Source: Owenia fusiformis
Lineage: Eukaryota > Annelida > Polychaeta > Sabellida > Oweniidae
DNA length: 64,000 nt
Direction: 5' to 3'
Assembly (NCBI GenBank): GCA_903813345.2
Contig: CAIIXF020000001.1
Coordinates: 53,771,885 to 53,835,884 of the forward strand
Shown: one piece after another, positions 3,701 through 62,180 of the stretch
Layout: each line of letters starts with the position of its first letter
How positions within the stretch are numbered: position 1 is the first letter of the stretch
Position numbers and translations under genes: made by a program
The notes under the pieces: model-generated
What the model saw: only the letters and a program-made list of their open reading frames with translations
Told to the model about the DNA's origin: nothing
The model's database searches: none

Positions 3701-6700
3701 AAGGGAATGTGATTCATCCGAAAACCTAACATTGTAAATGGACGACATTTGGAGCATATTTTGGAACGGCCATAACTCTATCAATATAAGACTATGATTA
3801 TTGGAACTTTGCCAGAGGATCCCACATTGAATGAAGTCTTTGTGTGCCAAATTCCAGAGCAATTAACCTCCATTCAAGAAAAATATTGAAAAAATGGAGG
3901 GTTGCATTTTTTTTGGGTCACCCTGTACATACATGTTTACATACAGGTAGCCACAAAAAATGTTAAATACACTGAGTGGAGCTGATCATTTATAAGTAAA
4001 ATTGTCAGTGAAATATTTTTCTAAAATATTAAGAGATTTTCTAGACAGTACAGATAAAGTATAGTTTCAGAAATTTTTTGGACTTAAATTGATTAATTTT
4101 TCAGATCACTCACCAACCCTGCTGCATTGAGTCTTAGCGCCCAAGATGAGTTGTATCTCTTCCAAACTCACCCCCTGATCACTTCCCTTACCCCCTCTAG
4201 TGGAAGTACAGAGGGGGGTACCCTTGTGAAAATTGAAGGGGTGGGGTTTGACCCACATTCAAACAACACAGAGGTGCTAGTTGGGGGTTTACCATGCATT
4301 AACAGCAAGGTTACAACTACAGGGATTCAATGTCGCACCCCTAAACTAGAGAATGTGCACTCATTTTATCCAGGTAACATTTTGTCGTTGTTATAATGAA
4401 ATACTTAGCCATTATGTCCCTATTATTGAATATACGCCTGAGGTCTGTTATCAATATAGCCTGAGCTCATGATCGAGGCATGTTATTACAACAGACCAAA
4501 GCATATATTCAATGATACGGACATCATTGTTATATTACATACCTTTATTTCCATGGCTATGTTATATCAATGACGTCACATGTCTGTGTGCGAGTGAAAT
4601 TTGGAGGAAATGAGATATTATGTCATAAGGTTGTCATGGTAAAAAGTTTGGCGGCTATACAGGCATATATAGCTGACCTTCGGCTCCATTGACCTCAATA
4701 CAAATGCTGCTTTGCTAGATATGTTATACAACACATAAGATATATTGGTTAGAAATTCTAATTTCATCTTCTTATTGCTGAAACTCGCTTTAATTTTTTA
4801 TAATTTCAGTATGAAATTAATAAACATTTGACATGAGAAATACAAAACAGAGCGATTATATCTACATAACACTCATAATTTAAAAACTTATGATAGAAAT
4901 GTTCATGCTTATACAGGTGCACGTGGTCTGTCACATGAAGTTTGGAAGAATGCCCTTACTGATACCCTTGATCAGATCCATGCTTTGGATGATGATGCAG
5001 AGGATTATGAGCTTAACATCATACCTAATTCTTATGTCACAAAGACCATGGTGAAAGACCTGTCAAAGTATGGATTTACAATATTTTTCTTCTTCTGAGA
5101 AATACATTAAGTCAAAAATATATTACTCTCAAACATTGTTATATTCAGTCTTTCGAATATCAGCAGATCATATCAATGTAGGTAGAAATTAAGGTAGATT
5201 TTAGGTGACCTAATTTTGTACCATCAACCAAAATATTTGTTAAGAAAATAGATTGAGAATTCTCTTTCTGTGTGTCAAGTTGACCTACTTTTTCAACTTC
5301 ACCCTTTTTCAATATAAGTACATGTATAATGAATCATCATGTGAGACCACTAAATGTTATGTGCCACTTTTAGATATAGCAGTGCTCTGCGAGGGTTCTT
5401 GAAGGTGCCTCACACAGGGGAATACACATTTCATCTGACAGCTGGAGGAGATGCTTCAATGTACTTGACACTCAATGATTCTCTATTGACAAAGGTACAC
5501 ATTAAAAAGTACCAATAAAGATACATAATTTACTTGATACTCAACAATTCTCTATTGACAAAGGTTCACTTTAAAAAGTACCAATAAAGATACATAATTT
5601 ACTTGACACTCAATGATTCTCTATTGACAAAGGTACACTTTAAAAAGTACCAATAAAGATACATGATTTACTTGAAACTCAATGATTCTCTATTGACAAA
5701 AGTACACTTTAAAAAGTACCAATAAAGATACATAATTTACTTGATACTCAATGATTCTCTATTGACAAAGGTACACTTTAAAAAATACCAATAAAGATAC
5801 ATGATTTACTTGAAACTCAATGATTCTCTATTGACAAAGGTACACTTTTAAAAGTACCAGTAAAGATACATAATTTACTTGATACTCAATGATTCTCTAT
5901 TGACAAAGGTACACTTTAAAAAGTACCAATAAAGATACATAATTTACTTGAAACTCAATGATTCTCTATTGACAAAGGTACACTTTTAAAAGTACCAGTA
6001 AAGATACATAATTTACTTGATACTCAATGATTCTCTATTGACAAAGGTACACTTTAAAAAGTACCAATAAAGATACATAATTTACTTGATACTCAATGAT
6101 TCTATTCTTGATCTTTCTTGATTCTCCCCTATATTTTAAAAAACTCACATAAACTCACAAAAAATCCTGTTTTGAAAAATAAAAACGACCATATGCATTC
6201 TTTCCAACTTTGTTAAGAAGTAAACGTTTAATGTAAATGTAACAACAAATCTAAAATTTCTTAGGAGGAATTGACTTCATCTCAGAATGGGAAATCAAGT
6301 CACTCCCAAAAAGTAAGCCTCCAGGTGGGACAGCAGTATTTTGTTGAGGTGTTACACAGGCAAAGGGCTCCAACAGGGGCCAGTGTTAAGCTGGGACTCT
6401 ATATGCATCAGACTCGATTCAACAGCAAGGATATATGGATGGCAAGAGATGAACAACAAGAGATCAAATTTTCTGCAATATCAAGGCCTGAAATACAGGT
6501 TTGTTTACCATGTTAATTAGTTAAAAGTCGCAATCATTTAAATTAGAAAATGTTTGAAAATTTGGAGTTTGCATACTTTTCATGGGACTTAAATATTAAT
6601 GGGTCAAATCTTTTTATTTTTCAGCATTATATGTACTACTCAAAATGAAAACATTGAACACATGTACCAAAATTTTGTAATCTGCTTTAGAAATTGACCA

Positions 6701-9700
6701 TAAGTGATTGGGTGACTGGGGAGGTTCCAGAAATTCAGGAAATATTTGTATCAGCTTGTACAGAGCCACAAACACTCAGCACAATAGTACCCAAGAGTAC
6801 ACAATCATCTAGTGCTACTGTGCCTGGTGGTGAGGTCCTTACAACTATGAGTGGACTTGATAACACTAATGGCATGACAGAAAGTGAGACTGAAGTGAAC
6901 ACTGCAACTACAAATGAAGTAAATTCTCAAGCAGACAACAATGTCTATAGTGCTGACAATAATACAATAGTTGCTAGCACACAGACCACACCTGCTACTG
7001 AAATAAAAGATAATGTCACCACTGCAGTAAATGTCAACTCAACTGATGTTAATGAGCCTACTACAGAGTCAAATGTTATATGTGCCAATCCCACCTCTAT
7101 GTTTACTCTTAGGTATGGCAAAGAAGGCACCTACAGAGCATTGAGCAGTAAGTAGAATATATATTTTTATCTCTTGTTATCTCACTCTCCTACAACATTC
7201 CTGCCCTGTAGCCAGCTTTTGTCAAAAGATTCCAGGGGGGGATCCAAATTTGAAAACTGTGGTCCAAAATCACTCAAAAAGTGCTCAGAATGGTGAAAAA
7301 CTGCATGTTTTTGAAAGAATTTTTGGTCAAGGGGGTTCAGTTGCAATTTTCTTTACATTTTTTATTCTAGTATTATATTATATATAGATTCACAAATTTA
7401 TCCATGTAATTGTATTTCATGTTTTACACATTTTTAGAGCCCATTGCCCTGAATGCAACAGTTGATGATATAGCAGCAGCTGTCAGTGCCATCTATACTT
7501 TAAAAAGGGTAGCTTCTGTTAAAGTTGTCAACAAAACCTTGACTCTGGAGGGCCTGAAATTCCGCGTTGTTTTTCTGCCACACCAAGGTAATTAAATCTA
7601 TTGTTGATTTGTATGTAACAATCCACAAGTTACACCATTCTTGCAGAATCTTTGCTTTCCCTCATTCTTGTCTTGTGTTTTGTTTAAAAACTATTTTTAA
7701 GTAAAGAAACGAACAAAGCTTTTTGCATTATCGAATGGTGGTTGTTTGATATCGGGTGTTATGTTATGACCAAAAAGAGATGAAAAATTGTTACATCTAA
7801 ATGTACAATTTGCTTTGTCCATTGTTCCATGTCGTAATTTGGCATTGGTACATATATTAAATGGTTGGTGTAGGTTACAAATTATCACACTTTTTATGTC
7901 CCCAGCACACAGTGTGGGGCCATATTGTTGGCCTAGGTTTGTCTGTCTATCTGTCCGTCCATCTGTCCATCCATTTTCAGGGCTGGATCTTAGTATGAAA
8001 ATCTAGAACTGATTAGTTTTTCGGCATTATGGGTAAATGTTAAGGCAGCCATTTTGGATTTTCCGTTCTAAAATCTTGTGTCTAAAGTCTTGTCTATGCA
8101 TTTTCAGGTTAACCGTTTGAGGGATCAATTTCAAATTTTCAGGGATGATTGTTAGTATGAAAATGTTGGAACTGATTGGAACTGATTTACCACATTCTGA
8201 GTAAATTTTAAGGTGGCCATTTTGGATTTTCCATCCTAAAAACTTCTCTATAAAGCCTTGTCTACATGTTTCCTGGCGAACCAGTTGACAGATCATTTTC
8301 AAATATTCAGGAATGATTCTTTGTATGAAAATCTCAAACTATTTAGTTTTTGGGCAGTCTGGGTAAATTTTAAGGTGGCCACATTGGATTTTTCTCTTAA
8401 AATCTTGTCTTCAACTGATTAGTGTTCAGCATTCAAGATGAAAAATGTGCAGTATATAGGATCACCTATTGGTGAGGACATGTTGTACACATTTGTGTTC
8501 TTGTCTAATCATTTTCAATCACTTTTGGTTGATGATATTTTTTCTTATTTTATATTTTTTTGCTTGTTGTATTTGTGGTGATTTCTGATGACAGGAACAC
8601 AGTCCATAGACCTACTGGAAAGTGGTTCTAGTATGCCTTATAATGGGACAATCACTGTTAGCAGAGTACAAGCCTTTGTGCCTCCGCAGGACACATTCAC
8701 TATCAGTTATGGTGGCAGGAATACATCACCTATACAGATAGGGTCATCAGCCGTACAGGTAAGGCTAATTGCATCACCTGTACAGATAGGGTCATCGGCC
8801 ATACAGGTAAGGCTAATTACATCACCTGTACAGATAGGGTCATCGGCCATACAGGTAAGACTAATTACATCACCTGTACAGATAGGGTCATCAGCCGTAC
8901 AGGTAAGGCTAATTACATCACCTGCACAGATAGGGTCATCGGCCATACAGGTAAGGCTAATTACATCACCTGTACAGATAGGGTCATCAGCCGTACAGGT
9001 AAGGCTAATTACATCACCTGTACAGATAGCTTAAGCATATTTAAATCAAGCCTTAAAAGAAATATTTTTAACGAAACTGTCATTAACTCATCAGAACTGT
9101 CCATCTCAAGAAACCAAGAAATTATATTTAACAGAGTACGATGTGATTTCATTTTCAAGGCTCACCTTTACTCGCATAACTTTACCAATGTAAATTCCCC
9201 CATCTGCTCATGTGGTATTAACAGTGAAACAACCAGCCATGTGATTTTTCGATGTAACTTGAGATTAACATTCTGGACTGAATTAGAAAACCAACTAAAA
9301 AATATGAATATACAATACTCCCGTAAATATAAGACACAAGGTGATAAACTTTCTCTGATCCTCAATAGTGATAAAACATTAAGTAGAGCTGAGAATCTGA
9401 TTGTTTTAAAGTGCAGTGCCATTTTCTTCGAGCGATGTGTAAATGTCTGAAATCCTCCACAAAACAACCTTTATCTTATTGTATCTCATTTATTTTAATC
9501 AAATATTATTGATTGAATACATTGTATATTGTAATTGTAGAACGTGGCTAATAATGCTAAAAGCACAGCCACTTACACTGTATTATTGTATGTATTCTTT
9601 GTACAAATGATTAATTTAATAAAAAAAAAAAAATAGGGTCATCAGCCGTACAGGTAAGACTAATTACATCACCTGTACAGATAGGGTCATCAGCCTTACA

Positions 9701-12700
9701 GGTAAGGCTAATTACATCACCTGTACAGATAGGGTCATCGGCCATACAGGTAAGGCTAATTACATCACCTGTACAGATAGGGTCATCGGCCATACAGGTA
9801 AGGCTAATTACATCACCTGTACAGATAGGGTCATCGGCCATACAGGTAAGGCTAATTACATCACCTGTACAGTGAGGGTCATCAGCCGTACAGGTAAGGC
9901 TAATTACATCACCTGTACAGATAGGGTCATCGGCCATACAGGTAAGGCTAATTAAATCACCTGTACAGATAGGGTCATCAGCCGTACAGGTAAGGCTAAT
10001 TACATCACCTGTACAGATAGGGTCATCGGCCATACAGGTAAGGCTAATTACATCACCTGTTCAGATAGGGTCATCAGCCGTACAGGTAAGGCTAATTACA
10101 TCACCTGTACAGATAGGGTCATCGGCCATACAGGTAAGGCTAATTAAATCACCTGTACAGATAGGGTCATCAGCCGTACAGGTAAGGCTAATTACATCAC
10201 CTGTACAGATAGGGTCATCGGCCATACAGGTAAGGCTAATTACATCACCTGTTCAGATAGGGTCATCAGCCGTACAGGTAAGGCTAATTACATCACCTGT
10301 ACAGATAGGGTCATCGGCCATACAGGTAAGGCTAATTACATCACCTGTACAGTGAGGGTCATCAGCCGTACAGGTAAGGCTAATTACATCACCTGTACAG
10401 ATAGGGTCACCGGCCATACAGGTAAGGCTAATTACATCACCTGTACAGATAGGGTCATCAGTTGTACAGGTAAGGCTAATTACATCACCTGTACAGTGAG
10501 GGTCATCAGCCGTACAGGTAAGGCTAATTACATCACCTGTACAGATAGGGTCATCAGCCGTACAGGTAAGGCTAATTATATCACCTGTACAGATAGGGTC
10601 GTTGGCCATACAGGTAAGGCTAATTACATCACCTGTACAGATAGGGTCATCAGCCGTACAGGTAAGGCTAATTACATCACCTGTACAGATAGGGTCATCA
10701 GCCTTACAGGTAAGGCTAATTACATCACCTGTACAGATAGGGTCATCGGCCATACAGGTAAGGCTAGTTACATCACCTGTACAGATGGGGTCATTGGCCA
10801 TACAGGTAAGGCTAATTACATCATCTGTACAGATAGGGTCATCAGCCATACAGGTAAGGCTAATTACATCACCTGTACAGATAGGGTATCAGTTGTACAG
10901 GTAAGGCTAATTACATCACCTGTACAGATATGGTCATCAGCCATACAGGTAAGGCTAATTACTTCACCTGTACAGACAGGGTCATCAGCCATACAGGTAA
11001 GGCTAATTACATCACCTGTACAGATAGGGTATCAGTTGTACAGGTAAGGCTAATTACATCACCTGTACAGATAGGGTATCAGTTGTACAGGTAAGGCTAA
11101 TTAAATCACCTGTACAGATAGGGTCATCAGCCGTACAGGTAAGGCTAATTACATCACCTGCACAGATAGGGTCATCGGCCATACAGGTAAGGCTAATTAC
11201 ATCACCTGTACAGATATGGTCATCAGCCATACAGGTAAGGCTAAATACATCACCTGTACAGATAGGGTCATCAGCCATACAGGTAAGGCTAATTACATCA
11301 CCTGTACAGATAGGGTCATCAGCCATACAGGTAAGGCTAAATATATCACCTGTTCAGATAGGGTCATCAGCCATACAGGTAAGGCTAAATATATCACCTG
11401 TACAGATAGGGTCATCAGCCATACAGGTAAGGCTAAATACATCACCTGTACAGATATGGTCATCAGCCATACAGGTAAGGCTAAATATATCACCTGTTCA
11501 GATAGGGTCATCAGCCATACAGGTAAGGCTAATTACATCACCTGTACAGATAGGGTATCAGTTGTACAGGTAAGGCTAATTACATCACCTGTACAGATAG
11601 GGTCATCGGCCATACAGGTAAGGCTAAATATATCACCTGTACAGATAGGGTATCAGTTGTACAGGTAAGGCTAATTACATCACCTGTACAGATATGGTCA
11701 TCGGCCATACAGGTAAGGCTAAATATATCACCTGTACAGATAGGGTCATCAGCCATACAGGTAAGGCTAATTACATCACCTGTACAGATATGGTCATCAG
11801 CCATACAGGTAAGGCTAATTACATCACCTGTACAGATAGGGTCATCAGCCATACAGGTAAGGCTAAATATATCACCTGTTCAGATAGGGTCATCAGCCAT
11901 ACAGGTAAGGCTAATTACATCACCTGTACAGATAGGGTCATTGGCCATACAGGTAAGGCTAATTACATCACCTGTACAGATATGGTCATCAGCCATACAG
12001 GTAAGGCTAAATATATCACCTGTTCAGATAGGGTCATCAGCCATACAGGTAAGGCTAATTACATCACCTGCACAGATAGGGTCATCGGCCATACAGGTAA
12101 GGCTAATTACATCACCTGTACAGATATGGTCATCAGCCATACAGGTAAGGCTAATTACATCACCTGTACAGATAGGGTCATCAGCCATACAGGTAAGGCT
12201 AATTACATCACCTGTTCAGATAGGGTCATCAGCCGTACAGGTAAGGCTAATTACATCACCTGTACAGATATGGTCATCAGCCATACAGGTAAGGCTAAAT
12301 ATATCACCTGTTCAGATAGGGTCATCAGCCATACAGGTAAGGCTAAATATATCACCTGTTCAGATAGGGTCATCAGCCATACAGGTAAGGCTAAATATAT
12401 CACCTGTTCAGATAGGGTCATCAGCCATACAGGTAAGGCTAATTGCATCACCTGTACAGATATGGTCATCAGCCATACAGGTAAGACTAATTACATCACC
12501 TGTACAGATATGGTCATCAGCCATACAGGTAAGGCTAAATATATCACCTGTTCAGATAGGGTCATCAGCCATACAGGTAAGGCTAAATATATCACCTGTT
12601 CAGATAGGGTCATCAGCCATACAGGTAAGGCTAATTGCATCACCTGTACAGATAGGGTCATTGGCCATACAGGTAAGGCTAATTACATCACCTGTACAGA

Positions 12701-15700
12701 TAGGGTCATCGGCCATACAGGTAAGGCTAATTACATCACCTGTACAGATAGGGTATCAGTTGTACAGGTAAGGCTAATTACATCACCTGTACAGATAGGG
12801 TCATCGGCCATACAGGTAAGGCTAAATATATCACCTGTTCAGATAGGGTCATCAGCCATACAGGTAAGGCTAATTACATCACCTGTACAGATATGGTCAT
12901 CAGCCATACAGGTAAGGCTAAATATATCACCTGTACAGATAGGGTCATCAGCCATACAGGTAAGGCTAAATACATCACCTGTACAGATATGGTCATCAGC
13001 CATACAGGTAAGGCTAAATACATCACCTGTACAGATATGGTCATCAGCCATACAGGTAAGGCTAATTACATCACCTGTTCAGATAGGGTCATCAGCCATA
13101 CATGTAAGACTTCTTATATCAACTGTACTATTGCTAATTACATTACCTGTGCATGTAAAGAAAGGCCATTAGCCAGAAAGGTAAGGCTAATTACATCATC
13201 TGAAAGGAAAGAGTTATTAGTTAGACATGACACATCGATTCAACATCAGTTTCGGAGGCATAAACAATCACCCAGACAGACTGAGTCACAAAATTTATTA
13301 AAACGAACCAAAAATAACGTTAACGTTGGAATTCAGGTTTTGGTATAAATATAAATAAACATAAATGACAAGGGGCAAAAATTTTTCCCTCTAATGAACA
13401 GTGTCCATAATATGTTTCTGATCCTCTTTCTCACACATTTCAGGTAGAACATAAACTACAAGACATCTTCAAAACCCAGTGTTTAACAAGTGAGAAAGTG
13501 TTCAAGCATTATCTCCATACATTTGAGGAGACTTTCCATGATTCTCCCCTAGGTACAAAGACTTGGGATATTGACCCCTACTGTGGTCAGGTGTCCTCTA
13601 GAAACCCCAAATTGCTCTACTCTACCCAGTTCATCAAAGCTAAAACCACCTCTGGGAAAATATTTCGAGCTGGTGATATCAATGTGGGGCGGTACCCTTA
13701 TGTAAGTCATTTAATATCTCAATTTATAATTATCATCAATGTAAAACATCTTAACACTTAATTCATAAGTATTATTTTGGTGCATAAAGCAGAAGAGTGT
13801 AATGTAAAACTAAATTGCCTCCTTTTCACCAATATCTAACGCTTTATCACTTCAGTGACAAGATATTATGTTAGTTTGAGGAAGGACTTTATGCTCTTGT
13901 GTTTTTGGAAAGTAACCTACTGTAACATAAGAATGATATATGAATTTTGGACTAGTATAATACGACTAACACTTAACTCATTGCTGGCCAAAGCTATTTT
14001 TGAGGTTTTCTGCAGGTGACAGGCCATTCTGATAAAAATTGATCAAAATGCCATGTTTTCATATCAGCATTTTAATGGACTGTATCAACACCCTCTTTGC
14101 TATGTTTAATACCATTGTGAACAGCAATGACAATATGATGACAATATATTCCATTGCACCCAAAAGTATTCCCCATGTAACCCCTACAATATTTCGGAAC
14201 ATTGTTGGTACAAATTGTGTGACAATTATTGTACAGCACCCCGAGATATCTCGGGGTACGATTATGACGTCATAGACAAGATATCTCAGGGTTGGTCATC
14301 AGCAATGAGTTAAAATCTATTTTATTGATGTAGTTGTGTTTTGCTGTCTTTGGGGATCATAGTCGTATGTTGGAAGTGACTGGTTATGTCCAAGGCAGGA
14401 ATGAAGATATGGGAATAGATGAAGATTACAACTTTAAGGTGGAGAAAAACATAGATACAATCCAACTCAATTCAAATAGGTAAAATTCATTGATATTTTG
14501 GCAACATGATTAATGTGTTTATCAAAATACATTTGAAGTTTTTTTTCACACCTATATATTTCATCTCCAAGACAGTTTTCCTGAAAGCATCCGATCTTTT
14601 CATTCCCTAGATATGAACCCTTCTGGATATGAACCCATTGAAATCCCACCCTTAGACATTCTGCCATTAGACCAGCTTTACAATGAGAGGAATTTAATGC
14701 ATAGTAAGAAACACATTGGTTGATCTATTGAAAAGATTGTTTGCAATTTGTTCATTGACAATCACAGATTTTACCTTTAAATGTTCAAGGTGGCAACATG
14801 TATGTGTGAATATATATGAGGAGATGATACAGAACAATGGGAGGATTCCATTCAAGGGCCAACTTCCTAGTAGCAAGCATAGGATACAGACTATTGCCCT
14901 AAAGAAACAACTCCAGACATCTGTCTTCTATGTGGATGAGATCACAATATCAAAGTCTGCATTTACAGGTAATAAACACCAACCTCCAAGCAGAGTCTGC
15001 ATTTACAGGTAATAAACACCAACCTCCAAGCAGAGTCTGCATTTACAGGTAATAAACACCAACCTCCAAGCAGAGTCTGCATTTACAGGTAATAAACACC
15101 AACCTCCAAGCAGAGTCTGCATTTACAGGTAATAAACACCAACCTCCAAGCAGAGATCTTTACAGCATTGGAGCAAGTAGGGCTGCACCAATATGGAATT
15201 TAATGAAAATAGACTTTCAAGCTTCCACTTGATACCATATATGCACTTACTTGGGAATGCATAAATAAAAGATTTCCATGTTTCTTTGGCAGAAGTGTAA
15301 AATATTAAGGGCACAATGAGTACTGTGTATATATATATACAGTATATATAATCATAAGTCATTATACAGCATACAGTGAGATAGCACAATGGGCAACATT
15401 TAGATAAGCTAAAAAAAATCAATTTTTACTTGTGAATGTTGGATTGAATGTAATGGAGATAGAATATCAGCAGCATATCAATAACGTAAATGCGAGTAGG
15501 TAGTTACCAGTTTCACCACCAGGTGGCTCGCTCGGGTCAGATAGCATGGCGGGTATAGTAGAAAGTTCCCTTTAACTTAAATTACATCTGTTTTAGTGGT
15601 TCAATTTTCATATAGCCCTTATGTATCGAATAGTTATGCAAATTAAAGTATGTCCAGTAAAAGAAAATGTTATATGTTCAATACAAGAAAAGATATTTCA

Positions 15701-18700
15701 CTTTTTGTGATTTTTAATCTGGAGTCTATGGGGAATCAACCCGAACTAGAAGTCACATTTTCAAAAACCATTAAGTTTTCAAAGTTTATAAACAATTTTT
15801 GAAACCATAATGTTAGATGTATTTTTACATGTAGATTTCAAATATGACATCACTTTGACTGAATTTTGAATATTTAATGACGTAAATCAAGATCATTTCT
15901 ACTAGCATCTAGTCTATTATTATTGCCTAGATAGATTTTATTTTCAGACTTTTCTGTTTTATTTTAGTTGTACAGCTGATGCCTGGTGTAAAGCCAAATG
16001 GTGTCACAGTAAAAGACATTAAAGTGTCAAAAGATAAAGATAGCTATATGGTTGAGATGTCACCAATAAACTGTGGCAATAACCTCCCCTTGCTGGCTAT
16101 TCACAATGCATCAATGTACAATTCAACAATGCACAATGAGTCAGGTGTGGAACAAGTAATCTACAAGGTACGAATTTTTTTTTAGGCAGTTATGAGACTA
16201 TTTCAGGGATTTTCTCTGGTTGATCTGGCTCTACCTGGTGGACAAAAAGAATCTGCCCTTTATCCCGTTCAACTCTTCATCTGTCTGTCAACAATAAACA
16301 GACAAATTAAAACTTACTTATCTGAACCAATGGTAGATTCATTTTATGGGGATCTGAGATGCTAATCACACCATTATCGCCCTAGCTCCCAGGTCTGCCA
16401 CTTTTTTAGAGTCAGCTTCGAGTCTGTATACAACTCTTTAACAATTCAATTTTTCTACTTTTTTCAAAGAAGAATTTCAATCAAAATCTTGCATCTTTCT
16501 GTATGTAAATATTGAAAAGATGTAACATATTATTTTTTCAGTCATCTCAATGGCCTAGTAACAACCACATAAGCATATCCCGAATACAAGCAGCTTCTTT
16601 GCCAATTGGAGGATCATTTGACCTCACAGTTGATAAACAAACTATCTCAGGTACGTTAAACCAATTGTACCCTTAGCAAGAGCCAGAGTTCATCTTTCCT
16701 TTCAAGATTCAAAATCAGAAAATCACTTCACCAAATTTTACACATATAAGCAGTTGATATTTATTTCAAGTTAAGTGTAACAGGGTGTCACTGTTGCTGT
16801 AGTTGTAGTTGTATTCCACTTTGGCTTAAACGTGCAATGTATGAAAAACTTAGGCAGTATGTACTGATAAAGTGGCAAGATCATTTTCTTGTTTTCAAGG
16901 TATTCCTGCATTAATCGCTGATGTAGACCTCAAACATCTCCTGGAGACTAATTTCAACTGGCAAGGAGTTGACGTTGAGAGACAGGGTACATGTACAGCA
17001 TTTCAATTTAAAATCAAATGGTCAAAAACTGGAGGAGATATAGCTCAGCTTTTGATTGGTTCCTCAATGTTGACTGCTAGTTCATCAGTTACCGTGGATA
17101 CTCGTACGATCCAAGATGGTGGATTATTTATGCCGACCATTCCAGGTGATTTTTTCCAAGTGGCTCATAGAAAACCACAGGTAAGGAATTAATTAAAAGT
17201 AGAATATTGTTTCTTTTGTGAGGAGAGAGGGTAATGCGCTATGTAACTAGAGTGTAAACTCAGTGTGTTTATGCTATACTGTTTCCTGATTGGCCAGAAT
17301 AAACGCTTGCCTATTTATGTTAAACCCATCATATGGTTCAGCGCATTTTGGGCTATGGATTTAAAATGGGAATGAGTTGTGTAACTAGTTTTAACCTGTT
17401 CTGATTTTGACCTTTGACAATGGGTTCCCTGGATTGAAGGAAAGAACATTCTGCTTGATTGTATTGTGAGATGAAATCATGTAGGGTGTGTTTTTGAACT
17501 ACCCGTGGGCAAGTGCATTGCATGATACAGGGTGGTCAAAAAACTGGAAACTGAATTTTTAATAACGTAAATCAAGATTATTTCTACTCACATCTAGTCT
17601 GTTAAGCAAATTTGGCAAAATTTAAGCAAATTTGGCAAAATTTAAGTAAATTAGGCAGAGATTAAGCAAATTTCACCAAATTCACCATAAGGTGGGTCCT
17701 AAAAAATTTGCGCCGAAAATATTCGAACCCCCTCCTGTCAAATCCTGGCTACGCCACTGCAATTGTGTTTTAAGTTGATCCAAATGGAATAACTTGTTAA
17801 ATCAAGAAATTAAGCGACTCTTGCTATTAAGTTGCCATGTTATTTAGCCCTACCAATACCCATGATGCCATCTATTTTTCCATTTATATGGAAAAGGGTC
17901 AATTCAGAAAGATTATTATTTTTCAGGTGACTGTTTCTGTTAATGGACTGCAAGCAGCCTGTGTGGGTGAAGGATTTCCCTTTCAATTCACTTCTTCTAG
18001 AACTCCAACCTTGACAGGCATAAACCCAATATCAGGTAAATTGTAATCTTATACCCCCCATGCATTTATTCCTGATATTCCTGAGTCTTTGATAATTTGG
18101 CTGGAAATTAAAAAATAAGGCCCAACTAGGCCCAGTAATGCGCAAAAAGGCCCCCTAATTGTGGCCATAAAAAATTTAGGCCCAGGCCTCTGATCCCCCC
18201 TGAACAACCAGTGAATTGCACCAAGAATACAACCATCTTTCAAAATAGGGATATCACTCAAATGTTTTCAGTAGCAAATGTTACAAAAGGAAATTGGTCT
18301 GGAAATATAATATGCTACATACGGCAGTGTCAGTTGCCACAGCATTTGGGAACTTATTAGCTAAGTATCTAGGATAAGTTATAGCCTGGTATTGTGCAGT
18401 TAGTACCACTTGCAATGATTAAAAAGACTTTAAGATATTGAATAAAAATAGTGTGGGCATTAAGGAGGTTTGGCTCCCATAGTTCCAACATGATATTTTA
18501 ATTTTGATCTCCAAGCAATATGTTCAGTGCTGATCATGCCTGCTTATTTATATGGCTGCAAGGAACTAATATGTCGTTAATGTCTAACATTATAAATGTA
18601 TTGCTATAAATTCATTATAGCAATCCAAAAGATTTGAATTAATATTTGACCACTTTGCTTATGTTTTAAATTTTTTGTCCACTAATAAGACCATAACTCA

Positions 18701-21700
18701 AATTCTGAAGTGAAAAAAAATGGCGGCTGTTTAATAATTTGAATTTTGTAATTAAGACATGGCTCCAAATATGGCAGAATATTGAGATGGGATGCTGGGA
18801 GCGAATCCTCTTTGGTGGGTATGGTGATTAATATAGAATATAGCAGGTGTTAAGATCTCACAATACAATGATATTTTATTCTTTTTAATCAAACTAGACA
18901 ATAGCGAGTTTAAGCTAGCGATATTTTTCACAACATTACCGTGAATGCAAAGCCAGTGAATCATTACAGTAATATACTCGTATATATTTATTTATTTATT
19001 TATTTAGCCTCCAATACTGAAGAATAGTTTGACAATTAAAACAATCTTACACTATACCTTATGCTAATTAGACAATTACAATATCATGAATTATACATGT
19101 ATACATGAGCAAAATTTAGACCCAAAATAACAATGGATACATTGGGAAATCAGCTAAAAAATCTTCTTTGGTACATAATTGAGACATTCTTACATGAATT
19201 AATCAAAACATTATCCCAATTTTTCATTGGAAACTCCATGCCTAAAATAATGTTATATAAAACCTCGCATGAAAGTTTCTTAAATGTAGGATTTTCCTTA
19301 ATCAGATTTTCAATCATAATCTCTCTGATATCAACATAATTATCACAACCCATAATAAAATGATAAAGATCCTCTAATGAGTTATTATTGCATCTCTTAC
19401 ATTCCCTATTTTCTCTAGGTAAACCATGGTTGTTGATTTCTAAATTATGTATACCACATAGCAACTTAATCATCATATTACATTTTTGCTTAAGTTCGGG
19501 ATGTTTGAGTCCTAAGTAATACCAGATAGAAGGAATGTCAATATGCAACTGTACAGTTCTAAAATCTTGAAATTGAATACTCATTGATAAAGATTGTCTC
19601 CAACTATTACATTCAAAATCTCTGACATTGTTCTTACATATTTTTTTCCATAGAAACTTTGACATATTTATACAACCATTGTACATGAAGCTCACAACAT
19701 TGTCCAACAATTTATATTTATTTAAAATAGTAATATACTCTTTAGTAATACCACCTGCTTGATGATTCACTAAACATTCAAACACTCTAAATATAAAAAT
19801 GTTTCTATAAATATTACTGGCACCCAAGGACAATATGTTGAAACAGAACATTAGCTTACATAGCTCAATATTATATAATATTCCTCTCCACCCCAATAAT
19901 GCCAAACATGCATCATTTGGTGTTTTCTGAGGTAAATTCTGAATAGATTTACACATGTGTTTATGAGTTTTTTCATAGAGTTCAACCTCCTGCTTATTAA
20001 AAGATCTAACTTCTGCTCCATAAAGCATTTTAGGTATCATTACAGATTGGTAAACCTTAGAAAGTATTAAGGGGTTTAAACCATCATTCCTCATTCTGGC
20101 TCCTACACATGCATAAAAATTACATCTTGCATCACTTATTGTAGCATTAACATTCCTCAACTTATCAGAATTATTATTTGCATAAACATTAACACCAAGA
20201 TGCTTATATATGAATTCTCCTCATTAATTACAAGGTTTTCAATTGTAATGTTGGTACCTTCAGAGTGTTGTCTTTTCTTTTTCTGACTTTTTGTCTCTCC
20301 AAAAACCATAATTGCGCTCTTAGAAGCATTAAATTGAAATCGACACTTATTGGCATAATTATTAGCAAGTTTTAATTCAATTAATTTACTCTTGTGTATA
20401 GCTAGAATTGCTAGATCATCAGCATAACACACACAACTCACATTTAATGATCCAACTTTACATGAGTTATTATTTGCAAGCAAGTTAATAAGCGGATTTA
20501 TAAATAAAAGGTACAAATACATGGAGATCTTTCCACCTTGTTTTAAACCCTGTCTATTATACAAACCATTCAGAATTTGCACCATGTATAAAAACAGAGT
20601 CCATAGAGTTTATATAAGATTGACGCAAAATTCTCCAAAGTTTCCCTTTAATACCAGCGTCATATATTTGAGCAAATAGCCCATCAATCCACACCGTGTC
20701 GTATGCCTTCTTTGTGTCTAAAAATGCAGCAACAATCTTACTTCCATTTTCAACATTATGAGCTATAGCCTCTTGAAGAAGAAGGGATGAGTGAAGAGAA
20801 CTACATTTAATCTTATTAGCACCCTGTAACTCTGATATTGTCTGATAAATATGACCATACTTCAATTCCATCTGAAGTAAAATCTCATCATATAGTTTAC
20901 ACAATGATGATTGAAGTGTTATACGTCTGTAACTATCCTTATCAAGTTTCTTCTTTTTTCCTCCTTTATATACTGGAATTATAACACCCTGTTTAAAGTT
21001 CTTAGGTGAATATTCTTCATTTAAATCAACATATTAAATAGAAATGCTATAGTTTTAAAAGTGTGATCACCAGCATACAGAAATTGTTCATATGGTATGC
21101 CATCATAACCTGGTGCCTTGGCCTTAGGTAACTTATAACAGGATTCCCTGACTTCATCTACAGTTATAACATACTGAAATTTTGGAGAATGATGACCAGT
21201 TTCATCCTCTATACACTTTATTCTCTGTTCAATTGCACATTTAAAGGTATCATCATATATATTGTTCATTTGGTCAGGTGAAGCTAACTTCTCAAAATAC
21301 TGTTTCCATGACTCCCTAACCTCTTCAGCATCAGTCAATAAAATTCCTTCTTCATCAAGTATAACATCAGGTAATCTTGACATTTTCTTGCCTTTGTTTA
21401 ATAAATACCACAGGTCTTTTTGTGAAACACTAGCATCTTCAATTGTGATATCAATTTGTTTGTTATATTCATACTCAGCTTGCCTTAAAGCTTTCCTTAA
21501 AGCTTTAAGGCAATCTTTTTATCCTTTGTTATCTGGGGTAATAATGGGTTACATTTCCAGTAGGGTTTACCATTATTTTTCCTGAACCGTATTTTAGGTA
21601 TAGATAAATTGGCAGCTGAATTAAAATTTTTAGTTATACTTTCCATAAACTCCTCTATTTCACTTGGTGAGAATTTTCTTTTATCAAATGTGTTGTCATT

Positions 21701-24700: not shown

Positions 24701-27700
24701 ACATCTCACTCAGTCTGTTCTCTTGATTTCATAACTCAGCTAGGTCACTATATTACTCTATACTCTACTCAGTGTAACAACATGAGTTTATGTCAAAGGA
24801 TTAAGGTACAATAAAACTAATCAACCGTAAATTTCTACATAAAGGACTATGGACAATTTAGATTTACTCAAAGGAAAATGTAAAGTGCACATGGGGAGTT
24901 AGTAATAGAATCTGCACCTGGTCCTTTGGATTTTTGGGGTACACATGGTGATCGAGAAGTAACGTCAAGATATTGCCATTTCAATACTTCTGGACCATTG
25001 TTTTTGAAAATTGATACAGATATTTCCCAAACATTGTTGAGTTTAATGTATACATCAAATATAAAGCTTCTGCTATTTGATTGGTCCATTTCCTGGTTAT
25101 TATGGTTACTCAAGGTCACCAGAGGCAAATCATTTGTTTTAGCAGAAAATGGAACGAACAATTGAAAAATACAATATCTCCCTCTGCAAGAAAAATTATA
25201 TTATTCCTTACCTAGATATCGTAGAACTATTTTAAAGAAATTGCTCGTTCTGCACATCCCAAATCAGATTTCTATGAGAGATCCTTTTTATTTTGCAGAT
25301 TTAAAAAAGTGTGCAATCCATTACCGGATGACATTGTGATGACATCACATTGATGTTCAGGTGACACCACCTTCATGAATTGCTGAATGACCTTGTGTGA
25401 TGATGCTCAATTGTACATATGATTCTCCCCAATGACAACAGATTGACACTCAAGTGACACTGCCTTCATGAATTTCTGGATGACCTCGTGTGATGATGCT
25501 CAATTGTACATATGATTCTCCCCAATGACAACAGATTGACGCTCAAGTGACACTGCCTTCATGAATTTCTGGATGACCTCGTGTGATGATGCTCAATTGT
25601 ACATATGATTCTCCCCAATGACAACAGATTGACACTCAAGTGACACTGCCTTCATGAATTGCTAGATGACCTTGTGTGATGATGCTCAATTATACATATG
25701 ATTCTCCCCAATGACAACAGATTGACGCTGAAGTGACACTGCCTTCATGAATTGGTGAATGAACTTGTGTGATGATGCTCAATTACACATATGATTCTCC
25801 CCAATGACAACAGATTGATGCTCAAGTGACACTGCCTTCATGAATTGCTGAATGAACTTGTGTGATGATGCTCAATTATACATATGATTTTCCCCAATGA
25901 CAACAGATTGATGGTCAAATGACACTGCCTTCATGAATTGCTGAATGAACTTGTGTGATGATGCTCAATTACACATATGATTTCTCAATGACAACAGATT
26001 AACGCTCAAGTGACACTGCCTTCATGAATTGCTGAATGAACTTGTGTGATGATGCTCAATTACACATATGATTCTCCCCAATGACAACAGATTGACACTC
26101 AAGTGACACTGCCTTCATGACTTGCTGAATGAACTTGTGTGATGATGCTCAATTACACATATGATTCTCCCCAATGACAACAGATTGATGGTCAAGTGAC
26201 ACTGCCTTCATGAATTGCTGAATGAACTTGTGTGATGATGCTCAATTACACATATGATTCTCCCCAATGACAACAGATTGATGCTCAAGTGACACTGCCT
26301 TCATGAATTGCTGAATGAACTTGTGTGATGATGCTCAATTACACATATGATTCTCCCCAATGACAACAGATTGATGCTCAAGTGACACTGCCTTCATGAC
26401 TTGCTGAATGAACTTGTGTGATGATGCTCAATTACACATATGATTTCTCAATGACAACAGATTAACGCTCAAGTGACACTGCCTTCATGAATTGCTGGAT
26501 GACCTTGTGTGGTGATGCTCAATTGTACATATGATTCTCCCCAATGACAACAGATTGACGCTCAAGTGACATTGCCTTCATGAATTGCTGGATGACCTTG
26601 ATGATGGCCAATTTCACCTGGAATAACAATTCCCTCCAATGACAATTTAGTTCAGAACCAAAATGATATCCAATGAGACATGTCCAGAGATCAGAGAGAT
26701 CAGCCCTGTTGCACTTGTCATTCACTCAACAGTTGCTGCCAGTATAGCTTTTGCCGCAGCAGTTAGCAATGGCATCATGCTTATCATATTGTGTAAGAAT
26801 TTTAGAAAATTGTCATCAACATCAATTTTGGTATTCAGTTTAACTATTGCTGATTTTATAACAGGTTTAATCTGTATTCCACTTATGATTTTCATTCGTT
26901 TACTTGTACCCCTTTATGCTCAAAAGGGAGAACAACTGCTTGATCCGGGAGCACAAAGCATGGTTTGTTGTGCTACATTCTTTAGTGGACTTGTCACTTA
27001 CATTGTGTCATTCTGCATAATGGCAGCTGTAGCTGTAGAAAGATTTCTTGGCATGCTGTTTTATAGGACACTGCATCAGCGTGTGGCTAAACGCAATGCA
27101 AAGTTGGTTGCAGTGGCCCTTTGGATCTATATTACAACTTGGGTTGCAGGTGCACTACCCCAAAACTTCAACTTTAACCCAGAACTTGGCTGTCATTTGT
27201 CATTAAGTTTCAAACCATTGTTTGTCCTTGTTGTGCAGTCACATTATGGATTATGTTTAGCATTATGTGTTATATTCTATATATTCATATTTGTTACTAT
27301 TAAAAAGCATAGAAATCGTATCAATGTCCAAATACAAACAAATCCTGTTATTGCCATTGCGCATCTCAATCAGCAAAAATGGACTGTTACAATATTCCTT
27401 GTAGTAGCAGTATTTATAGCTACTTGGTTTCCCTTTTTCATCACTGTAAACATCATCAAAGAGGTGAACTGTATCTTGCCTTGGAAAAAGAATGTTCTGT
27501 TCTCTGTGACAGAATTAGCATATTTGAGTTCTTTGGCTAATCCTTGGATATATACATACAGGCACAGATGTTATAGGAATGCTTTGATAAAACTGTTGCA
27601 GCCAAACAAAATTCAACCACTTTAAAAATAACATCATGGTTATTGGTAGTCTGCACAATTGAGTTTAAAATGAGATCAGCCTTGAGATGAGACTAAAGGG

Positions 27701-30700: not shown

Positions 30701-33700
30701 TCATTCACATCACATAATTACTGTGTGTTTGTCCATTTGATATTATTGCCCATTATTAATAATCAAGCTAAGGCTTGTACTCAGGTGGCAATATGGGAGA
30801 GATTGATTTTAACTTTCTGCCATTGTTGCTATCTTTTTTCTTTAGTCCAGAACTTAGCATAAGAGACAAACATCTTGGCCATCATTGATTTGTATCAATT
30901 TGGAGAACAGTCATTGTATAAATCTATTAGTATCTTTGTCAGTAGCAAAAATCAGTAAAAGTTTTTGGAGTAGCCTAAAATATGTTGCTGGTCTTTGAAC
31001 ATAAATGTATTCAGATAAAGCTTATCTTACGATGAAAAATAAATAAGATAATAAGTTTCTTCTCAAAGATATATATTCAGATATTTTATTTGACTGACAT
31101 CCAATATATTGACAATATTTTATGACAAAACTAACTATGAACAGTTATTTGATTGAATAACAATGTAAACACAATGCATGTGACAAGTAGAACACAAACT
31201 ACCAGACAACGGTCCATAACCATAGCAACCAACATCCATTCACTTTTTTGACGCTCAGTTTTAATTCTTTTCATATTTCTTTCATGTTTTTCCTTGTACA
31301 TTTTATTAGTCAGTTCCATATGTTGACAGCTTTGACAACCATCCTGTTTGTTTTCAGTTAAATCAAAACCAAGGGTACCCATATCACTATGTTTCTTAAT
31401 GATAATGCCAAATACCTTTCCAAGTGCTCTAGCAACATAGGCAGTCCTTTTTCCATAGTGGCCATTGAAATGTATATTCAGGCTGCCAACTGTGAAGATG
31501 ACATTCATGCCCATAGCAAACATAATGAACATTGTGAATTGGCTAATCAGGGGTATGTTGTGTGAATCTACTGGTATGTATGCTGAGATGCTCATGTTTA
31601 GGACAACCATGGATAATAAAACCATTATTGACAATGGTGCCCTGGAACCAGAAGCTATTGGCATTAGTAAACCCATAGTGCTGATTAGTAGCAGGAAAAT
31701 ACATGGTATGATCAGATTGAAAATGTAGTATAATGGTTTGCGCTGTATTATTATGGTAGATACCACTTCACTAAATGGCAAAACAACAGTCCCTGGAGAA
31801 CTCGAGTAGTTCATTTCAGTGTTATATGTATAAAAGTCTAAAATATTCCATTCACCATTTAGTTGAAAATGTTTCATATCTCCTTTCCTTTGTTTGGTAT
31901 ATATGTATATTTCAGAGACGTCACTTACCCATGGTGCAATGATCATATTGCATTTCTGTGTATCAAATGGAAATATTTTCAAAAACATTGTACATGATAC
32001 TCGGAGAACAGCAGGAAAATTCCAGCGAACATATCCTGTGTGTTCAACAATATTCGGTATGCCTTCACTGTAAAATTTTAGTGAGGTTTGTTTATTATAG
32101 TCCGCACTATTGTATAATGTTATATCTGGGATCCAAATCTCATCATTGGCAAAGTGTTGTATTGTAATGTTCCCATAATCCTTTGGGTTCCACTGCAGAC
32201 GGCTATCGTTCCAAAAGAATCGCATGAATGTTGCTACTTCAATGACTTTACTCCTTTCATGAACATTGAGGATTTGGAACAATGCAATGTCTACCATAAC
32301 CTGTGTTGACTGCAACAACAAATTGTTATTTTGGTAATTAGCGCCTCATTTACAAACTTGTGTCTTATTTAAAGGCACACTGTAACATACAGCCGACAAA
32401 ATGGTTAAAAAAACATTTTCTCAGGCTTTAGAGTCGATTTCATGGTTTAAAACCTTCTCTTGTGATTCTATTTTCGAACTATGCTTGAAATTCAATTCAA
32501 AGTCTATTGAGTCTTAAAAAGCGATACTTAGACTGAGGATTGAAATGTGTTCACGACAACTTTCATCTCATCTTTATTATGACAGACCGGAAGTGAATTT
32601 TCGAGTCGAGTAAATGGTGATAATGATCTTTTTTATGAAGCAGGGAAATCAAAACATTACTAATAGAAATCATAGTAAGCATTAGAAGATCATTTAGAAG
32701 CATTTAAAATCGAATCCATGGCAAAATCTGAATAATTGAAATATTCACGCACGGACGGATTTTTATAATCGATGATTTTATCAATCAAAAAATGTTTTTA
32801 TGAATTTATGAAATTTTATGAAAATAATACTCAGAATATCAACCTCAGAATTTCCGTCATACTACAAGGTTGCAAATATATCATATATCAATACCTGCCT
32901 CAGAAAAAAACGAAATGGCTAATGAGATTTCTGACAGAAGATCGTAGATATTGTATCATGACACATTTCAGATTCATGAATTTGTCTCTTTGGATTTTCT
33001 ACTCTGTGAATTTTCTAGTCTGTCTTAAAAGATTTCTATTTTATGCCATATTTATCTTTAAGGATTTATAGTTAGTAGTATAAGATAAGCTGGGGGTCAT
33101 TAACAGAACTTTCGCAAAGTTACGAATTTGTAATTCGTAACTTTATGAAATTCGTAAATATATAAAAAGTTACGAATCGGCCATTAACACAACACTTTCG
33201 TAATTGTCATTCATAAGTTTTATCGTTCGTAAACGAATTTCAAATTGTGACGTCATCTTATATCATTATTTATCACAAATAAAAATATGATGTCATTTGA
33301 TATCATTGCGCGCTGTGATTAAACCTGTCTCCGCGATTTCAAAGATTCCCAGCTCAGGAACATATTTGCTTATCATGTAAGAATAGGTAGATATTTTAGC
33401 TTGAAACTTAGCATGCATATAAAGAACAATTTCTTTTTGCCAACCTGTATACCTTACATAAAAACTGGATGAGAAATATGCCATTCGCAAAGTTATAAAA
33501 GGTTCTGAGGTGCTATTAAAGTTACGAACGAACGCATATGTGACGTCATTTTTTTGTAACTTTGCGAATCGTTCGTAACTTTACGAAAGTTCTGTTAATG
33601 CATATTTACCAAATTCGTAAAATTAACAATTGACTTGCGAATTCGTAACTTTGAGAAAGTTCTGTTATTGACCCCCTGGCTATTTTCTAGTCGTTTTTAT

Positions 33701-42700: not shown

Positions 42701-45700
42701 TATTCACTGGCGGATCCAGAAGCTAACAAGGGGGGACATTTCAAGTTGGCACGAAAAAGCCCTAAAACCAAAAATTGGGCCCAAATATTTTGAAAATTTA
42801 AGACCCATATGTTAATAATTTGGCCTAAAAAGGCCCATTTTTGAGGCCCTACAAAATATTTGGAGCCATAAAAATTTTTGGGGTCTACCCTACCGCCCTT
42901 GGATCTGCCAGTGATACTCTTATAATATAGTACACATTTATGACAAAACATGGATTGTTACCTCTCCAATTTAAGATTTTAATGCCAGAGCATTTTGCAA
43001 TGGTATTCTTCAAATTGACATTGCAAATAAAAAAGCGAATTTTACATGACACATAACAGTGTCATGTAAAAGCATGTCAGATTGGACATAATTTATGAAC
43101 CATTGTTTTCAAAAGATTCTTGAATGTAGATGTTGGAATTTGGGTATATTTATCAGAAAGTTCATTGGAACTATTACTATTCTGCCAAAAGATATGATGT
43201 AATCCTCGCCACTTTGAAAGGCTTTGGAAATGAGCATTAGCCGCACTCCAGTAATTTGGGTAAAACTCAATTAGACCAGCATGCTTTGGTAGGAAAAGGA
43301 CATGTGTGAGGCCAGCGCCATGCATGCCAACCAGGATATCACTGTTGCTCACATATTGTAACTGTTGCTTCATAGGAAGTAAATCTATCTGACTTTCTTG
43401 TATGGTGTAACTGGGATACATCTCATTAGCAATTTGCACCAATTCTTTTTCATTCTTTATTTTTCTGGTGACAAATCCTGTGGGATTTCTGGGATGAGCA
43501 AGATAGTCTCGTCGCCATATTAATGAAATAGTGAGATTTTCACATTTTAGATGTTCCTCGTTATTAATGCTATAACGTTTGAGAAAGAAATTACTGAAGT
43601 CTTCAATATATGGAATGTCCACTCTATCATGTGATTCCATAGGGCTAGAATAGCCTAGAATACCCCATGTAAGATCTGTATACATCACCACTTTAGGTAT
43701 ATTAGCTACATACTCTGATGAATTAAACAGCGTTTTCCAAACTGGGTCTAAAGCTCCAATGGGGTGGCCATCAATGAAGAGAATATTTGTGTCTCTTGGG
43801 GAATGGTTAAAGAATCTCATTAATAGGAAAGCATTGTAGAAGTCTGTCATAGTATGATAAAAGTTAGCATATTCATATCGTGTTATTGCAATAGTAAACT
43901 CTGAGATTGTTTGATTAGTTCTTGGGAACATTGGGACTAATTCTAAAGCATGCAACCACTGTGATAAGTGATTTATCTCAGAGAATGTATAATTTGGTAC
44001 TTCTTCATCACATTTTAGTTGAAAAAATCCTGGCAGTAATGTATAATATTCTTTACTTTCTTTTTGGTTCATTACATCTTTGATTTCCTCACCTCCTCTT
44101 TTTCCCGATGCTTTGGACATGTCAATTAATCCATTTGAAATGTGAACAAAATTGTGGTTGAAAAGTTGTAGCTGGTCATTACAGTATGTTTCTCTCTTAG
44201 AGTACCAGTTGTTCATCTCTTTGTTATCCATCCAAGGCATAAAGTGTTCCACACGGTTAATAATATCTTTGATAGTAAGGATTGTTTGAGAGACTTTCAG
44301 CTTGATACCATCCATTGATTTTGCTGTTAAGAAATTTTCCTGTTTAGGTTTGTTCATATCCATTATATTAAGATAAACATATTTTTCATGGTTATGTATA
44401 TATATCAGAAGAGAGAAACTCCAGAGCACTACGACTAGCAGAGGAACTGCCATAAATATTGGTTTACGTAATAATTGTGTCAATATTTTACTCAACATTG
44501 GCGCTGTCATATTGCAACTGTATGCTGTATCCTATCAGTATAACTTCACAAGTTTAATTTTCCCTGCTTGTCAGACAGCATATACATTTTATGATTCCTG
44601 TATTTGTTAAAGTTCAGCTTCTATAAATCAGAAAGTAACAATTGTGATAATTTTTATTACAGAAATAAAACATATTTTAGTATTTTAAGCTATAAATATA
44701 ATGGAATTGGAACACCATAGATCAGCAAATCCTCAAAATGGTCACCATTATTTGCAAAAATGTTATCACTAAATATAAGATGTTTGATTTGGTTCAAATC
44801 TTATAGGTTTATTCCTAAGGGAATAGGACCATTTCTCAAAAATGGTTACACTTTTAAGACAGAAAATACATTTTTTGACTGAAACCGTTTTACCCATTTT
44901 GTTCATGATTTATATATTCATGCTTAACAAATTTGTACCCTGATGAAGAGGTAATATACAAAATGGCCTCTTAATTCAAAATGGTTCCCATTTTTGCAAA
45001 AAGAATGCAAGCAATTCTTTAAAAGGAGATACTTCTTCTTTGTTATTTCTGTCACAAAATTTAAGTTCAAAATGAGGAGTGTGATAAATATGTTTTGTTC
45101 AGTGGGATTTGCTGTCTTTATTAGGCATCATCTGCAATATATGAATTTAATTCAATACCCAACGTGAATTAGTTCATAATATAGTATCATGAATTCAAAT
45201 TCAAAAATCACTGTTGGTTATGCTATCTGTACAGTGTATTTTCTGCATGGTCAGCATGGTCTGCATAGGGTGTAATAGGCCCGGGGGGTTCACTGTGTAC
45301 AAAATTTGGTGGGGTCCTAGGTTAAACCCTCAGATATCAATATATGTTCCCATACCAATTTCGATGAGTTCCCATATCAACCAATATAACATCCAAAGGC
45401 CATACCAAATATAAGACCAATGCCATACCAAATGTTACCAAATGTTTAAAAATAGGACCAATGCCATACCAATGCTATGATTGGTCAAAAGTGAAATATC
45501 TTCCAGGAAAAAAGCTAATATTTAAACTGAAGAAGGCCCCGACAAGAAGGTGATCCTTGAGGAAAACGTTCCAACACGGCCTCAATTTAAGGATATGTGT
45601 AACTACTAGACCAATGCTATACCACAAGTGTGAGATAACATATTTTCCATGACCATTCTCATACCAGAAACTTGGGGGCATTCTCAATTCCCATACCAGA

Positions 45701-61990: not shown

Positions 61991-62180
61991 GATTGGCAAT
62001 TTGCATTTGGTGTGTGTAATAGTTGGCAATTGGCATTTGGTGTGTGTTATAGTTGACAATTGGCATTTGGTGTGTGTAATAGTTGGCAATTGGCATTTGG
62101 TGTGTGTAATAATTGGCAATTGGCATTTGGTGTGTGTAATAGATGGCAATTGGCATTTGGTGTGTGTAATAGTTGATAAA
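61991..62180. repeat. 30-bp tandem repeat (6 copies)
   Basis: Unit agttggcaattggcatttgg plus tgtgtgtaat, spaced exactly 30 bp from 61991 to 62141 with a broken seventh. It lies 64 bp after the exon 36 donor and does not include it. Confidence 0.95.

Follow-up and report, generated by a model that had tools for sequence, protein, structure and literature searches.

The choice of one splice donor among several equal ones has long been a puzzle, and in classical duplicated-donor constructs the donor nearer the acceptor (the intron-proximal one) is favored. Natural arrays, in which a nearly identical donor or acceptor is present in three to about 80 copies, provide a test of splice-site choice. 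The window considered here (the whole stretch of 64,000 nucleotides that was analyzed) contains a giant fibrocystin-L-like gene in which one exon–intron boundary is present in about 80 tandem copies. Which of these donors can be used, and how might a gene tolerate so many of them?

An exon–intron boundary in about 80 copies

The minisatellite lies at 8722-13128 on the + strand, where TRF reports two 48-bp arrays, at 8722-9029 (6.4 copies, 94% matches) and 9633-13128 (73.0 copies, 93%). The array begins within the end of an exon and continues through that exon's intron, with each unit corresponding to the exon's final 37 nt (8722-8758) plus approximately 11 nt of intron. Among the roughly 79 copies, 78 carry CAG|GTAAG. 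Exact CAGGTAAG donors number 78 (80 if two degenerate 3' donors are included), compared to one more elsewhere on the + strand of the window, and the 77 donor-to-donor spacings measure 48 (70 cases), 47 (six cases), or 655 (one case). The units are of 29 kinds among 76. Degenerate edge copies, recognized from the sequence, occupy 13129-13210 (+), and the tail of the array extends to about 13200. An earlier note on this DNA had described 75 to 80 copies, each with a strong 5' splice site, and a unit made from 36 nt of exon and 12 nt of intron. The array is real, and the proposed unit is right within the ambiguity of its edges. The array also lies where it had been placed, at 8722-13110, but it is interrupted by an insert, has a longer tail, and includes six 47-bp units.

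In the 498-Mb assembly, the 48-bp unit gave 21 matches, all within its own array, and such match counts are lower bounds because the search skips very common words. Neither a second allele nor a paralog of the array was matched in the assembly by this lower-bound search, and one allele is represented. No Rfam family was found in the window at the gathering score.

The insert, at about 9030-9635 (+), is a LINE-like fragment with a poly-A, recognized from its sequence, its flanks, and its genome matches. Its sole family match is to zf-RVT, below the cut-off, and we infer that this poly-A-ended insert is a LINE fragment. Repeated bases at its ends amount to ATAG at most. The 595 bases of the insert have at least 42 matches in the genome, including the insert itself (40 of 155 candidates were scored). 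The insert is probably young, and probably arrived after the array already existed, because at least 16 other copies are 99% identical over 593-595 of the 595 bases.

The host gene

The earlier note had assigned the amplified boundary to a fibrocystin-L gene, and the domain content of this + strand gene supports the assignment. Of the 10 peptides tested, 7 scored above the cut-off for TIG, and PA14 did so in one peptide joining three exons. Farther along the gene, G8 and a CEMIP-type beta-helix were each recognized in two of four further peptides, which came from exons predicted by the second gene model at up to 97 kb. The set of TIG, PA14, G8, and beta-helix is one that we take to define the fibrocystin-L (PKHD1L1) family.

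The index exon at 8595-8758 (+) is an open frame that ends in phase 0, with the 5'-most donor after 8758. Its predicted partner is the exon at 13444-13701 (+; VEHKLQDIF..., with the 3' end placed by eye), which follows the acceptor AG at 13442-13443, and the junction of 8595-8758 to 13444 is in frame (phase 0). When the two exons are joined, the resulting peptide can be aligned over their junction to a different module of this protein (E 5e-05, a single comparison), and a second module also matches it (5e-04). In profile comparison, the index exon and its partner gave no family above the cut-off.

A first ab initio model predicted 8595-8758 with exactly these ends and missed many exons, and in a second model self-training was pulled into the 48-bp array and exon 8595-8758 was lost. 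In the edited model, 12 predicted exons were dropped by hand (starts 8600-13200, and beyond 134700), 8595-8758 was inserted, and an edge was changed in three exons, yielding 68 exons. Phases in the second model are enforced by its method except at penalized breaks, and thus phase agreement is partly by construction.

Three long uninterrupted frames within the span of this gene look like intronless nested genes: a rhodopsin-type GPCR (26651-27625, +), a Cys-loop receptor channel (31131-32345, -), and a glycosyltransferase 61 (43077-44531, -). There is also a broken retrotransposon-like stretch at 19150-21518 (-), with reverse transcriptase matches in two frames.

Arrays at other exon edges

Three additional donor-spanning arrays, with units of 69, 40, and 33 bp, are present in the same gene. 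The 69-bp array (5458-6103, +; 9.4 copies) lies inside PA14, where it duplicates the donor of the exon at 5374-5494 (+). The PA14 match spans the junction between this exon and the one at 6265-6499 (+; 5' end placed by eye), which completes the domain. The 40-bp array (14954-15155, +; 5.1 copies, 100% identical) duplicates the donor of the exon at 14790-14968 (+; 5' end approximate), and the gene model places the following exon at 15968-16167 (+). The flanks of all five of its donors are identical over 15 nt on the 5' side and 25 nt on the 3' side. The 33-bp array has 2.8 copies and lies at 6273 of locus L011. Two other minisatellites begin past a predicted donor and do not span it, one at 61993-62175 (30 bp x 6.1; 66 nt past the donor) and one at window coordinate 98128 (L011:4128; 20 bp x 8.2; 68 nt past).

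A genome search for two CAGGTAAG motifs 12-27 bp apart gave 127 matches, compared to 62 for the reversed pattern, and many of the matches listed are dispersed repeats. Sixteen loci were hand-picked among the matches listed of these 127, with two many-place repeat families left out. Four of the 16 (L019, L020, L043, and L049) were read as starting at a recognizable exon end, whereas the L018 array begins about 60 nt inside an intron and the other 11 are unclear or off-exon. Protein matches underlie the readings of L019 and L020, and L043 has only a weak match (0.037). An automatic score did not agree with all of these readings: L019 received 4.0 and L020 received 0.1 at its first close pair (its exon end lies earlier), whereas high scores without an exon-end reading were given to L045 (15.0, for a frame made of the repeat itself) and L018 (13.3).

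Besides L043, the four loci read as starting at an exon end are donor arrays in a DNAH2 gene (25 bp x 46; PDB match E 5.9e-20), in a KIAA0895-like gene (17 bp x 17.5; match E 0.0039), and in a cathepsin L-like gene. DNAH2, which was chosen as already array-bearing and was modeled with 68 exons after one weak exon was dropped, has additional arrays at donors (44 bp x 13.1, 118 bp x 18, and 37 bp x 2.6), acceptor-spanning arrays (87 bp x 5.9 and 94 bp x 2.7), a 33 bp x 9.5 array ending at an acceptor, and two-copy duplications. The earlier interpretation of an amplified boundary in a fibrocystin-L-like gene is supported, but its view that such boundaries are rare is not supported for this genome, since three more donors of the same gene and donors and acceptors of others in this genome are similarly amplified, and amphioxus provides a precedent.

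The 118-bp DNAH2 array corresponds to L058:5425-7546 (C4:3111425-3113546) and has 97% identity. Roughly 91 nt of its unit is exon, and the unit also carries a TAG|GTAAGT donor, giving about 17 partial exon copies in the intron. One dispersed repeat family has CAGGTAAGCACATC-like motifs in pairs with a spacing of 22 bp (G000 C1:38277561, C3:7460108, C4:3454250, C5:12848860, and others), and a second carries CAGGTAAGTAAGTACATTG. Locus L017 may also be dispersed because its motif recurs at C2:626437.

Reading frames and donor choice

Donors 1-6 of the 48-bp array (after 8758 to 8998) are in frame and stop-free because 48 nt make 16 codons, and the insert closes the reading frame beyond donor 6. 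The exon-attached copy is probably the one that is spliced, because, of 133 later donors matched by motif in eight donor arrays, just 7 keep the frame open, an argument that presupposes functional genes and exons taken from an ab initio model with hand edits. Counting by motif captured 8 of 9 copies in the 69-bp array and, in the DNAH2 array with its 46 copies, 31 donors. In the fibrocystin-L-like gene, the open later donors are 5 of 77 (48-bp array), 0 of 7 (69-bp), 0 of 4 (40-bp), and 1 of 1 (33-bp). Elsewhere they are 0 of 30 in the 25-bp array of DNAH2, 0 of 10 in the KIAA0895-like gene, 0 of 2 in the cathepsin gene, and 1 of 2 in L043.

At four DNAH2 donors, none of 23 further positions keeps an open frame (some have no GT in register), and among 12 AG copies upstream of seven acceptors in DNAH2, one keeps it open. 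The 33-bp array abutting a DNAH2 acceptor is an exception, with open frames at all eight upstream AG copies tested. Frame does not choose at this acceptor array, at the 33-bp donor array, or at L043, because copies there are open (8/8, 1/1, and 1/2, respectively). In most arrays tested, frame would demand the exon-attached copy, which for donors is the one farthest from the acceptor.

In the 40-bp array the 40 nt around every donor are the same, yet the frame stays open at the first donor only; local sequence is therefore insufficient for the choice, which must depend on position or wider context. For the 48-bp array, the reading frames are consistent with normal splicing despite the many copies. 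It had been proposed that the gene either selects a single donor or makes many isoforms. The five open later donors leave room for some isoforms, but frame closes the remaining donors.

Tolerance, targeting, and other explanations

Judging from these sequences, boundary-spanning minisatellites, or "mirages," are likely tolerated through use of the exon-attached copy by exon definition. Such arrays would begin with short tandem duplications across the edge of an exon, and those seen here would have grown by ordinary minisatellite turnover. They would be tolerated because the spliceosome keeps to the copy on the intact exon, which to judge from the reading frames would be the 5'-most donor or the 3'-most acceptor. 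In exon definition, a donor would pair across the exon with the upstream acceptor, and decoys farther on would have no close partner. A "first transcribed" rule fits donors but not acceptors, whereas exon definition fits both, and so appears to be the simplest account. In the 48-bp array, the 77 donors after the first would then be mostly silent intron, and donors 2-6 at most might be used in part to make in-frame variants, with 16 residues added per step.

The open frames at donors 1-6 and the unit length of 16 codons might instead reflect a protein repeat selected through splicing, with all six donors used to provide zero to five extra 16-residue repeats like VRLITSPVQIGSSAIQ. Conservation within the array is in keeping with this proposal: in inner copies, the eight CAGGTAAG columns are invariant (P 0.006, for 21 of 48 variable columns and random placement), as are ten columns, ACAGGTAAGG (P 0.016), and the longest invariant run is ten columns (P 0.034). 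However, 2 of 9 copies of the 69-bp array have donor variants, the insert closes the frame past donor 6, and the 69- and 40-bp arrays of the same gene are unable to do likewise, making the proposal quite unlikely. Selection on donor cores was discarded as a general rule, the invariance being confined to the 48-bp array, and donor conservation was not built on because of the variants in the 69-bp array. Decidedly improbable is the related suggestion that the 48-bp array is a variable-length coding element, in which donors 1-6 would yield fibrocystin-L isoforms, donor cores would be under selection, and turnover would provide heritable variation. Inflated copy number or misassembly might also be suspected, as long arrays are difficult to assemble, but such an artifact is highly improbable for an array with so many kinds of unit, degenerate edges, and an insertion within it, and with like arrays recurring in other genes.

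A mutational process might also direct tandem duplication to splice sites, for example by way of R-loops or AG|GT motifs. Left array edges lie upstream of a donor, no more than 60 nt away, in 4 cases versus 0.78 expected (P 0.0076; 27 arrays), and in DNAH2 three are at donors versus 0.99 expected and three at acceptors versus 0.96 (P 0.07 each; 18 arrays), but these edge tests were picked after the data had been seen and DNAH2 was picked for having an array. Arrays do not overlap donors more often than expected (4 versus 4.39). Furthermore, boundary 40-mers have a nearby copy (at least 75% identity within 3 kb) less often than intron-interior 40-mers do (16 of 272 versus 89 of 600), compared to 3 of 121 for exon centers. 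Targeting of this kind is thus unlikely, and boundaries seem to be tolerated, not targeted, because their copies are fewer than those of intron interiors. A broader count, of arrays spanning a donor or lying up to 80 nt downstream of one, was set aside (6 versus 5.24 expected at random placement).

The same 40-mer rates place boundaries between exons and introns. Intron-interior 40-mers have copies in 36 of 300 cases in the fibrocystin-L-like gene and 53 of 300 in DNAH2, and exon centers in 0 of 61 and 3 of 60, respectively; an earlier control draw of random intronic 40-mers from the fibrocystin-L-like gene gave 53 of 400. A bias toward donors alone was hinted at by the fibrocystin-L-like gene (4 of 68 donors versus 0 of 68 acceptors) but was not upheld in DNAH2 (5 of 68 versus 7 of 68).

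Relation to known boundary duplications

In structure, the 48-bp array, with its about 80 copies, fits the known mirage type. Its unit joins exon and intron of one boundary, and the splice signals persist in many copies, as the 78 exact donors attest. In amphioxus, mirages have been described in Adh3, the globins BflGb6 and BflGb9, TnC, and PGBD5 (PMC3087553; PMC3902484). These reports describe, as in the present case, minisatellite-like tandem duplication of exon–intron boundaries on the donor or acceptor side, with splice signals retained in many copies (PMC3087553; PMC3902484). BflGb6 has six and three repeat units in two haplotypes, in contrast to about 80 copies here, and the hosts are cephalochordates, whereas the present host is a spiralian with several arrays in one gene (PMC3087553; PMC3902484).

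In a literature search covering few subscription journals, no report of mirages outside cephalochordates was recognized. A cephalochordate host is common to the mirage cases compared, although it is not a structural trait; the host here has a Lox5-type homeodomain followed by KLTGP, which we take to be a spiralian mark, and a search for COX1 gave no match. Provided that this placement of the host is right, mirages are thereby extended from cephalochordates to a protostome. Pervasive minisatellite growth of this kind suggests that introns may be lengthened without breaking genes.

Intron gain by tandem duplication has reportedly occurred in potato RdRp, and it resembles the present case in that a segment containing splice signals was copied in tandem. 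Unlike in potato, the acceptor here lies outside the array and, by eye, the intron end is unlike the exon end. The intron starts with GTAAGG and the next exon with GTAGAA, and the intron and exon ends show no likeness by eye.

Human segmental duplications contain internal tandem repeats, some of them at exon–intron boundaries (PMC2812944). That work likewise describes minisatellite units at exon–intron boundaries that alter gene structure (PMC2812944). The variable human repeats, which were found via paralog differences, average 30-bp units in four copies, whereas the array described here is longer and resides at a single locus (PMC2812944).
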